A program made the translations under genes and the position numbers. The notes below the pieces were generated by a model, which had not been told where the DNA came from, ran no database searches, and worked only from the letters and a program-made list of their open reading frames with translations. Of a stretch of DNA of 64,000 bases, positions 13,434-32,180 are shown one piece after another. How positions within the stretch are numbered: position 1 is the stretch's first letter; each line of letters opens with the position of its first letter. The stretch is from Chloroflexota bacterium (GTDB lineage Bacteria > Chloroflexota > Limnocylindria > P2-11E), in the NCBI GenBank assembly GCA_027310565.1, contig DAIDAP010000030.1:1-64000 (forward strand), given 5' to 3'.

Positions 13434-13439
13434 TATACT
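13434..13439 (+). promoter_or_regulatory. Candidate -10 box of the leuS T-box leader
   Basis: TATACT matches five of six positions of the sigma-70 -10 consensus and lies about seven bases before the inferred 5' end of the T-box leader. No good -35 hexamer is seen at 16-18 bp spacing. Confidence 0.5.
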
Positions 13440-13615
13440 TTGCGTCGAAAGGCCGCGAACGGGAGCAGTACGCGTCCTTCCCAGCAAGGGAGCCGGCGGC
13501 TGGTGCGAGCCGGTCTGCGGGAGGCGCCGAACTCGCCCGGGAGCCGCGAGGGTGAAGTGCGGTAGCCCTCGCCGGAGTCACGCCCGTTACCAGCGTGCTC
13601 GAGCGGAGAGCGATC

Positions 13616-13687
13616 GGGGCTGTGGCGCAGTGGGAGCGCATCACACTGGCAGTGTGGGGGTCGCGGGTTCGAATCCCGCCAGCTCCA
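13616..13687 (+). tRNA. tRNA-Ala (anticodon GGC)
   Basis: The 72-nt cloverleaf has acceptor GGGGCTG/CAGCTCC, including the G3:U70 pair that identifies alanine tRNA, a D arm GCGC/GCGC with GG in the loop, an anticodon stem TCACA/TGTGG around loop CTGGCAG (anticodon GGC, reads GCC), and a T arm GCGGG/CCCGC with loop TTCGAAT. The discriminator is A; CCA is not encoded. Conserved T8, A14, G18-G19 and A21 equivalents are present. It lies inside the leuS T-box leader. Confidence 0.95.
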
Positions 13688-13726
13688 CTCGGTAGTCGTT
13701 CTCAAGCGGGGTGGTACCGCGGAAGT

Positions 13727-13777
13727 CGCCTTCCGTCCCCGTGCCGGCGTCGTCCGGCGCGAGGCGGAGGGCGTTTT
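13727..13777 (+). terminator. T-box-controlled intrinsic terminator before leuS
   Basis: CGCCTTCCG (13727-13735) pairs over nine positions, with one G-U, with CGGAGGGCG (13765-13773), which is followed by TTTT. A smaller GCCGG/CCGGC hairpin sits inside. The 5' arm lies directly after the GGTGGTACCGCGG antiterminator core, as expected of a transcriptional T-box switch. Confidence 0.85.
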
Positions 13778-13804: not shown

Positions 13805-16231
13805 ATGGCGGTGGCGAAAGAGCGGACCGAGCGATACGACCCCGCCACGATCGAGCCGAAGTGGCAGCAGGAGTGGGCGCGCTCCGGCCTCCACGAGACG
13901 CCCGACACGGTCGAGGGCAAGAAGAACTTCTACTACCTGACGATGTTCCCGTACCCCTCGGGCGTGCTGCACGTCGGGCACTGGTACGCGTTCGCCCCGC
14001 CGGACGCCGTCGCCCGTCACCTCCGCATGCGCGGGTACAACGTGCTGTTCCCGATGGGCTTCGACGCGTTCGGCCTGCCCGCGGAGAACTCCGCGATCAA
14101 GAACGACGCCCATCCGGCGCCGTGGACGGACCAGAACATGGCGCGCATGCGGGAGCAGTTCCGCAGGATGGGTGCGGCCATCGACTGGCGCCGCGAGGTC
14201 GTGACCTGCTACCCCGACTACTACCGCTGGAACCAGTGGATCTTCCTGAAGCTCCTCGAGAACGGTTTGGCCTACCGGGCGAAGGCACCGGTGAACTGGT
14301 GCCCGAAGGATCAGACCGTGCTCGCGAACGAGCAGGTCATCCAGGGGAGATGTGAGCGGTGCGAGACGCCCGTGATCAGGCGCGACCTGGAGCAGTGGTT
14401 CTTCCGGATCACGAAGTACGCCGATGAGCTGCTGAGCTTCGAGGGTCTCGACTGGCCCGAGCGCGTGAAGGTCATGCAGACCAACTGGATCGGGCGCTCG
14501 GAAGGCGCGGAGCTCGGATTCCCCGTCGAGGGCCACGATGCGACGATCCGCTTCTTCACCACGCGGCCGGACACGATCTACGGAACGACGTTCATGGTGC
14601 TCGCGCCGGAGCATGCGCTCGTCGAGAAGGTCACCACGCCCGACAAGCGCACGGAAGTCGCGGCCTACGTCGAGCGCGCGCGCAACACGGGCGAGATCGA
14701 GCGCACGACGGCCGAGCGCGAGAAGACGGGGGTCTTCACCGGCGCGTACGCGCGGAACGTCTTCACGGGCGAGCGGATCCCGATCTGGATCGCGGACTAC
14801 GTGCTCGCGACGTACGGCACCGGGGCGATCATGGCCGTCCCCGCGCACGACGAGCGCGACTTCGCGTTCGCGAGGAAGTTCGGGCTCGAGATCCGCGAGG
14901 TCATCTCGGTCGACGGCACCGAGCACGCCACGCTGTCCGAGGCGTACGTCGGCGACGGCCTCATGGTGCGCAGCGGACCGTTCACCGGACTGTCGAGCGC
15001 CGACGGGAAGAAGGCGATCGCCGACGATGCGAAGAGGCGCGGCATCGGTCGACCGTCCGTGACGTACCGCCTGCGTGACTGGCTCATCTCGCGTCAGCGC
15101 TACTGGGGGACGCCCATCCCGGTCGTGTACTGCGATGCCGACGGCATCGTCCCCGTGCCCTACGACCAGCTGCCGGTGGTCCTGCCGCGCGACGCGAAGT
15201 TCGATCCCCAGGGCGGCAACCCGCTGGCGCGTGTCGAGTCCTTCGTGAACACGACGTGCCCGAAGTGCGGCAAACCGGCACGCCGCGAGACCGACACGCT
15301 CGACACGTTCATGGACTCGTCCTGGTACATGTATCGCTACGTCGATCCGACGATCGAGAGCGCCTTCATGAACAAGGAGATCGGCCGTCGCTGGCTCCCC
15401 GTCGACATGTACGCGGGCGGCATCGAGCACGCGATCCTGCACCTGCTGTACATGCGCTTCGTGTGCAAGGGGCTGCGCGACCTCGGCGAGCTGTGGATCG
15501 ACGAGCCGGCGCTCCGCCTGCGGAATCAGGGCACCATCGTCTTCGGCGGCCGGAAGATGTCGAAGTCGCGCGGCAACGTGCGGTCGCCGGACGTGTACGT
15601 CGAGAGGTACGGCGCCGACACGCTGCGGCTCTTCATGATGTTCTTGGGTCCCTGGTCGGAGGGTGCCGACTGGGACGCCTCCGGCATCGACGGCTGCCAT
15701 CGGTTCCTGCGCCGTGTGTGGGAGCTGGGGCTGTCGCCAGGCGAGCTGAGCGGCGCGCGGGATGTCGCGGTCGATCGCGTCGTGCACCGCACGGTCAAGA
15801 AGGTGACGGAGGACATCGACGACTACTCCTTCAACACCGCGATCGCCGCGATGATGGAGCTGGCGAACACCCTGATGAAGGCGAGCGGTCCGAGCCGCGC
15901 CGATGGCGTGTCGACGCTCGTCCTGCTGCTCGCGCCCTTCGCCCCGTACGTCAGCGAGGAGCTCTGGCATCGCCGCGGCGGGTCGGATTCGGTGCACCGC
16001 CAGCCCTGGCCGGCGTACGACGCCGCGCTCGCCGCGGCCGAGCGGGTCACGATCGTCGTCCAGGTGGATGGCAGGGTGCGCGATCGGTTCGAGGCGCCGG
16101 CGGCGACCGGGCAGGCCGAGCTTGAGCGCCTGGCGCTCGCGAGCCCGAAGGTCCGTGCCGCCCTCGGCGGCGCGGCACCCGCGCGCGTCATCGTCGTACC
16201 GGGACGCCTCGTGAGCGTCGTGACGAAGTGA
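13805..16231 (+). CDS. leuS: Leucyl-tRNA synthetase
   Basis: LeuS charges tRNA-Leu. The 808-residue class I enzyme has the HIGH-type motif as PYPSGVLHVGHW (about residues 43-54), the CP1 editing domain with the threonine-rich FFTTRPDTIYGTTFMVLAPEH and GTGAIMAVPAHDERD segments, a zinc-binding CPKCGKPARRETDTLDTFMDSSWY region, and KMSKS as GGRKMSKSRGNV. The C-terminal anticodon-binding domain follows. The ATG at 13805 has GGGAGG nine bases upstream. Expression is controlled by the T-box leader. The stop overlaps the next gene by 4 nt. Confidence 0.97.
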   Translation: MAVAKERTERYDPATIEPKWQQEWARSGLHETPDTVEGKKNFYYLTMFPYPSGVLHVGHWYAFAPPDAVARHLRMRGYNVLFPMGFDAFGLPAENSAIKNDAHPAPWTDQNMARMREQFRRMGAAIDWRREVVTCYPDYYRWNQWIFLKLLENGLAYRAKAPVNWCPKDQTVLANEQVIQGRCERCETPVIRRDLEQWFFRITKYADELLSFEGLDWPERVKVMQTNWIGRSEGAELGFPVEGHDATIRFFTTRPDTIYGTTFMVLAPEHALVEKVTTPDKRTEVAAYVERARNTGEIERTTAEREKTGVFTGAYARNVFTGERIPIWIADYVLATYGTGAIMAVPAHDERDFAFARKFGLEIREVISVDGTEHATLSEAYVGDGLMVRSGPFTGLSSADGKKAIADDAKRRGIGRPSVTYRLRDWLISRQRYWGTPIPVVYCDADGIVPVPYDQLPVVLPRDAKFDPQGGNPLARVESFVNTTCPKCGKPARRETDTLDTFMDSSWYMYRYVDPTIESAFMNKEIGRRWLPVDMYAGGIEHAILHLLYMRFVCKGLRDLGELWIDEPALRLRNQGTIVFGGRKMSKSRGNVRSPDVYVERYGADTLRLFMMFLGPWSEGADWDASGIDGCHRFLRRVWELGLSPGELSGARDVAVDRVVHRTVKKVTEDIDDYSFNTAIAAMMELANTLMKASGPSRADGVSTLVLLLAPFAPYVSEELWHRRGGSDSVHRQPWPAYDAALAAAERVTIVVQVDGRVRDRFEAPAATGQAELERLALASPKVRAALGGAAPARVIVVPGRLVSVVTK

Positions 16232-32105: not shown

Positions 32106-32180
<75 letters not shown>

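Follow-up and report, generated by a model that had tools for sequence, protein, structure and literature searches.

In this study, we found that a complete tRNA-Ala(GGC) gene lies within the leuS T-box riboswitch leader of a Chloroflexota bacterium, on the 64,000-nucleotide stretch of DNA analysed here (the window). By membership, this composite locus is a T-box riboswitch plus a tRNA gene, and the nesting itself is the new part. The nesting of a tRNA in a T-box is a conserved and probably old arrangement and not the oddity of a single genome. It has apparently not been described so far; in line with what an earlier note on this DNA had stated, no description of a tRNA nested in a T-box was found in the open-access literature. 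The same note had proposed, from the letters alone, a complete T-box with a Leu specifier and a complete tRNA-Ala inside it, ahead of leuS, and ARAGORN, RF00005, and RF00230 agree on this anatomy. The features of the locus are as follows.

13434 to 13439, forward strand: candidate -10 element TATACT, without a good -35, in a high-GC genome (from sequence)
13446 to 13743, forward strand: T-box leader, full-length match to RF00230 (80.4 bits, E 8.1e-18, model 1-219)
13452 to 13545, forward strand: Stem I (cmscan alignment)
13532 to 13534, forward strand: specifier CTC (Leu), as GAA-CUC within the specifier loop (cmscan alignment)
13546 to 13572, forward strand: helix following Stem I (Stem II region), GCGAGGG/CCCTCGC (cmscan alignment)
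13573 to 13589, forward strand: hairpin CGG...CCGTTA (Stem IIA/B region; cmscan alignment)
13601 to 13605, forward strand: GAGCG, the RRRNG motif 5' of Stem III (from sequence; motif as in PMC7778990)
13606 to 13614, forward strand: Stem III 5' arm GAGAGCGAT, pairing at 9 of 9 positions, two of them G-U, with 13695-13703
13616 to 13687, forward strand: tRNA-Ala(GGC) with G3:U70 and A73, without encoded CCA (ARAGORN, RF00005)
13695 to 13703, forward strand: Stem III 3' arm GTCGTTCTC, pairing with 13606-13614 and followed by AA at 13704-13705
13708 to 13740, forward strand: antiterminator GGGGTGGTACCGCGG...CCGTCCCC, with the T-box bulge TGGT at 13712-13715 (cmscan alignment)
13727 to 13777, forward strand: competing intrinsic terminator CGCCTTCCG/CGGAGGGCG (arms 13727-13735 and 13765-13773), then TTTT (from sequence; formed in the MFE fold of the leader)
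13805 to 16231, forward strand: leuS, leucyl-tRNA synthetase of 808 aa (open reading frame)

The RF00230 match was obtained in an E-value search and covers the complete model, with 84 nt skipped within Stem III; Stem I was thus found by covariance upstream of the tRNA, where the earlier note had placed it. No T-box was reported in the window at the Rfam gathering cut-off, because 80.4 bits fall below the cut-off of 93. The match is the top-scoring T-box match of its genome. Among nested relatives, five score 94-133 bits with RF00230, and the nested T-boxes of Thermosyntropha (133 bits), Desulfofundulus (120), Desulfovirgula (115), and Syntrophomonas wolfei (106) all lie above the curated cut-off; a nested T-box of Armatimonadota (L065) scores 46 bits. 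Two of the elements that mark T-box membership, an antiterminator with a UGGN bulge and a competing terminator with a T run, are present in the window. The specifier also fits the regulated gene, as CTC occurs together with leuS downstream and with a tRNA-Leu(GAG), which reads CUC, in the host genome. When the window leuS was used as a query, leuS was matched in nearly every genome searched, with E below 1e-60. A simple terminator scan missed the terminator at 13727-13777, and the MFE fold of the whole leader recovered neither Stem I nor Stem III and was no better than those of shuffles (z -0.57). MFE folds of long high-GC RNA are commonly uninformative.

The ends of the nested tRNA were placed at 13616-13688 by ARAGORN and at 13616-13687 by RF00005 (66 bits). 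The window copy has the cloverleaf, GGC anticodon, G3:U70, and A73 of an elongator tRNA-Ala, and G3:U70, A73, and a 7-bp acceptor stem were found in all 110 nested tRNAs checked. As far as its sequence tells, the nested tRNA appears to be chargeable and functional. Moreover, a pattern search, which a divergent second tRNA-Ala(GGC) could escape, found exactly one such gene, the nested one, in 50 of 50 host genomes. Extra pattern matches in two genomes (G333 and G353) were read as other tRNAs, their spacing being different. The genome of the window itself gave 48 matches in a full tRNA search, only one of which, the nested gene, is Ala(GGC). The only other tRNA in the window is a stand-alone tRNA-Ala(CGC) at 32106-32178.

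The RRRNG-StemIII-AA motif adjoins the T-box antiterminator (PMC7778990). Its parts occur in the window in the order GAGCG-GAGAGCGAT-[C-tRNA-CTCGGTA]-GTCGTTCTC-AA, with the 5' end of the tRNA one nucleotide from the Stem III 5' arm, and therefore the tRNA takes the place of the Stem III apical loop. The earlier note had assigned the tRNA to the variable linker of the leader, a location which is borne out and can now be refined to this loop. Seven nested relatives (Bacillota, Chloroflexota, Caldisericota, and Coprothermobacterota) show the same in their Rfam alignments, the skipped Stem III insert being the tRNA. Judged by sequence comparison, the Stem III arms flanking the nested tRNA covary in relatives. 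Pairing at the first six arm positions is 76% in the real loci compared with 55% (sd 1.8%; 0 of 1000) when the 3' arms were re-dealt among loci 1000 times, and the 76% is probably an underestimate, because the first anchor rule mis-registers some loci, the window included. The duplex energy of the arms is -11.6 kcal/mol for real and -8.2 kcal/mol (sd 0.2) for re-dealt pairs. In three loci of the window's family (L146, L153, and L265), an extra hairpin-rich insert of 50-90 nt lies between the nested tRNA and the Stem III 3' arm, and Stem III pairs despite it.

When 84,980 species genomes were scanned, without regard to isotype, for a T-loop with a T-box antiterminator after it, at least 120 loci were returned; these were checked with ARAGORN and for leuS downstream, and loci from relatives were added. 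The scan and the follow-up searches together yielded at least about 120 distinct nested loci; both this wide spread and the sole-copy status of the tRNA are points on which the earlier note was silent. Among the matches listed, the nested isotype is tRNA-Ala(GGC) in all, and the few scan matches with other tRNAs (Ser, Gly, Pro, and Lys) have neither leuS nor a T-box context. leuS lies downstream in every nested locus listed with a long enough stretch, in some cases after one intervening gene; in a handful of loci (such as L061, L087, and L090), the available sequence ends too early or is too short for leuS to be judged. The specifier is CTC in the 110 nested loci called, the sequence GAACTC is invariant in 14 diverse members, and GGTGG.ACCGCG is nearly so across phyla. 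This recurrence, with the same isotype, site, and downstream gene, indicates that the nesting is more than chance.

The hosts belong to at least five phyla: Bacillota, Chloroflexota/Thermomicrobia, Armatimonadota, Coprothermobacterota, and Caldisericota. Single MAGs labelled Pseudomonadota and Thermodesulfobacteriota, which may be mis-binned, were left out of this count. Nesting was found in the isolate genomes of Syntrophomonas wolfei, S. palmitatica, Desulfofundulus thermobenzoicus, and Desulfovirgula thermocuniculi, and in MAGs of Chloroflexota, Thermomicrobia, Armatimonadota, Coprothermobacterota, and Caldisericota. Almost all genomes of the window's family show a single T-box match of about 300 nt, and the tRNA is present in those that were fetched. 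A strict pattern found 24 nested cases in a 400-genome sample of the window's phylum, which is an underestimate because variant cores (L269, L272, and L278) were missed. Long T-boxes of family f3 in the window's class (L248-L250 and L252-L257) were rejected as candidates; these are leaders of the Trp type with a TGG specifier and without a tRNA, which match the nested ones in length but are unrelated to them.

Some loci depart from the common layout. Six leaders (L072, L074, L075, L089, L098, and L278) have a tRNA-Ala(CGC) upstream of Stem I and the tRNA-Ala(GGC) nested, and thus two tRNAs beside one leader. In L026 and L049, from Coprothermobacterota and Caldisericota, Stem I of the nested T-box is much shortened and lacks the distal domain, and in L269 and L272 an ORF resembling a GNAT acetyltransferase (by eye) separates the nested T-box from leuS.

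A consensus promoter scan found no site in the window, where the promoter is weak by consensus. Relatives of lower G+C have TTGACA-17-TATAAT at the position matching the TATACT of the window. Such promoters, called with at least 9 of 12 consensus matches (many with 12 of 12 at low G+C), were found just before Stem I in 53 of 87 relatives, whereas the consensus scan found promoter-like sites in only 6 of 178 tiles inside the leaders of relatives, a distribution that fits a single promoter ahead of tRNA and leuS and gives no support to a separate internal promoter. Strong promoters also precede T-boxes without a tRNA and are not special to nested leaders.

The 60 leuS loci that were collected by their protein only, without regard to tRNA, are of four kinds. 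Ten are nested; five (L268, L283, L293, L294, and L295) have tRNA-Ala(GGC), often with tRNA-Ala(CGC), ahead of a complete T-box; six (L271, L274, L275, L277, L281, and L301) have the tRNA and leuS without a T-box; and the rest have a T-box without the tRNA, or neither. Both a T-box and tRNA-Ala(GGC) are present in 15 of the 60, and the tRNA is 5' of the antiterminator in every one of these (10 nested, 5 before Stem I); a sixteenth 'core', in L275, was rejected as a chance pattern. Stem III is ordinary both in the leuS T-boxes that follow the tRNA and in those that lack it. In one locus (L270, genome G078), Stem III of the T-box contains GGGCCTGTAG...CAGGTCCA, a degenerate tRNA-Ala relic with the acceptor strands kept and the remainder lost, and an intact tRNA-Ala(GGC) lies on another contig of the same genome; therefore decay of the nested gene is possible when there is a second copy. 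A copy elsewhere was found in most of the genomes without a nested tRNA that were tested, G078 among them. Among Bacillota with the T-box only, 6 of 9 have a tRNA-Ala(GGC) elsewhere by pattern and 3 of 9 gave no pattern match. In L301, Stem I is gone and a consensus-like promoter stands directly before tRNA-Ala(GGC), followed by leuS; the tRNA can therefore outlive the T-box when it is the sole copy, and L301 is possibly a descendant of the nested form.

A LeuRS tree built from 110 sequences has nested members in both its Bacillota and its Chloroflexota parts, and at least 14 changes of the nested state are forced by well-supported branches. The LeuRS tree alone therefore cannot separate one old origin with losses from several gains. 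That the isotype and the site are always the same speaks for an old common origin followed by many losses, perhaps starting from a tRNA-Ala(GGC)-leuS cluster, and leaves room for transfer or repeated gain of the nesting.

The most likely reading, and probably the correct one, is that the locus is a composite unit whose T-box decision is made before, or independently of, cleavage. One promoter ahead of Stem I would give an RNA that is both the precursor of tRNA-Ala(GGC) and a leucine-responsive T-box leader of leuS, with the elements in the order promoter, Stem I, tRNA, antiterminator/terminator, and leuS. The tRNA sits at the end of Stem III, the single T-box helix whose apical loop can vary freely, so that the specifier, Stem II, RRRNG-StemIII-AA, and antiterminator, which bind and read tRNA-Leu(GAG), keep their relative places and are unaltered by the nesting. 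Provided that the T-box is functional here, charged tRNA-Leu would lead to termination and uncharged tRNA-Leu to read-through. With its position ahead of the terminator, the tRNA would be part of every transcript, so that tRNA-Ala would be made either way and only leuS would be conditional. RNase P, together with RNase Z, or with a 3' exonuclease where CCA is encoded, would release the tRNA from both the terminated and the read-through RNA, most probably once the T-box has made its decision during transcription. Counterpoints within the window are the T-box score below the curated cut-off, the MFE fold lacking Stem I and Stem III, and the promoter weak by consensus. In addition, the linkage of tRNA and leuS may be under selection for something other than the switch, because some relatives keep this linkage without a T-box.

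Alternatively, processing may be part of the switch itself, although we consider this rather unlikely. Cutting by RNase P at 13615/13616, along with a 3' cut, would break the chain between Stem I and the antiterminator; the split RNA, held only by the Stem III helix, might antiterminate less well, or the freed leuS mRNA might begin with a stable 5' hairpin and be longer-lived, and RNase P activity or tRNA folding would become a second input to leuS. The cut sites necessarily fall between the two tRNA-binding parts, and the covarying arms around the tRNA stay paired, as expected if the halves must remain together; since tRNA-less leuS T-boxes keep the same Stem III, however, this helix is explained without a nested tRNA. 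Also in favour of processing, N(-1) is U in 61% of the nested tRNAs and in 25% of the other tRNAs in the fetched loci, and G(-2)U(-1) is found in 32% and 10%, respectively, but this comparison ignores the relatedness of the loci and is a lead only. Pairing of this kind between the leader and RCCA slows E. coli RNase P (PMC9433436). On the other side, other Chloroflexota show a second stable arrangement, with the tRNA ahead of the T-box. Cutting by RNase P and RNase Z need not part Stem I from the antiterminator at once, because the arms flanking the tRNA still pair. If the riboswitch were indeed self-splitting, with RNase P maturation halving the T-box and Stem III holding the halves for a limited time, which we are inclined to doubt, leuS regulation would acquire an intrinsic timer, or RNase P or tRNA-folding capacity would act on it as a second input.

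The remaining explanations are less likely still. A sub-threshold RF00230 score in the window and the loss of the T-box in the six relatives named above would be consistent with a T-box that is a decayed remnant around the tRNA, with leuS constitutive here, but every sequence element that defines a T-box is present, GAACTC shows no variation and GGTGG.ACCGCG hardly any, and Stem III covaries, which makes such decay improbable. It is more doubtful yet that the tRNA serves the T-box as structure, by lengthening Stem III, and supplies functional tRNA only in a minor way or not at all. Its place at the Stem III tip in aligned members would suit such a role, whereas it is the sole tRNA-Ala(GGC) gene in the 50 genomes, has the alanine identity pair in 110 of 110, and is missing from Stem III of other leuS T-boxes; the proposal of the earlier note that the tRNA may be a needed structured linker is likewise weakened by the ordinary Stem III of leuS T-boxes with the tRNA in front (L268, L283, and L293-L295) or without it. 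Coupling of the tRNA-Ala supply to leucine, up or down with leucine starvation, was also suggested in that note, and would draw on the inferred shared transcript. We give it very little credence, since the tRNA is upstream of the terminator in 15 of 15 leuS loci with both parts and would thus be in every transcript, termination leaving its synthesis unchanged. Chance, contamination, or an assembly artefact is scarcely credible: most source genomes are metagenome-assembled, but isolate genomes and many members of the window's family have the nesting as well.

Compared with the leuS T-box of RF00230 (transcriptional, Stem I-II-III), the window leader has the same Stem I with specifier and distal motifs, Stem II region, RRRNG-StemIII-AA, UGGN antiterminator, terminator, and downstream aminoacyl-tRNA synthetase gene, and differs in that a complete and apparently functional tRNA for a different amino acid occupies the tip of its Stem III. 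Bacterial operons that co-transcribe tRNA and protein genes exist, for example the E. coli tRNA-tufB operon, with which the window locus would share a single primary transcript giving processed tRNA and mRNA. Unlike the tRNAs of that operon, which are separate units before the message, the tRNA of the window is nested between the halves of a regulatory RNA. The T-box leader of B. subtilis thrS is cut between its domains in vivo, upstream of the terminator, and the cleavage predicted for the window leader would also fall upstream of the terminator; a general endonuclease acts on the thrS leader, whereas tRNA maturation enzymes would have to cut here.

Thus a riboswitch for one tRNA harbours the gene of another, and isotype, site, and regulated gene are the same in at least five phyla. 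Annotation can miss such T-boxes, as that of the window is below the Rfam cut-off, or can overlay tRNA and riboswitch without comment. The arrangement shows that Stem III is able to carry a large independent fold, and it is therefore a natural test of the communication between Stem I and the antiterminator. Furthermore, the T-box decision and maturation by RNase P and RNase Z would compete on one RNA, a competition that is directly timeable. Finally, the nesting suggests that an essential single-copy tRNA could lock a regulatory leader in place over long evolution.
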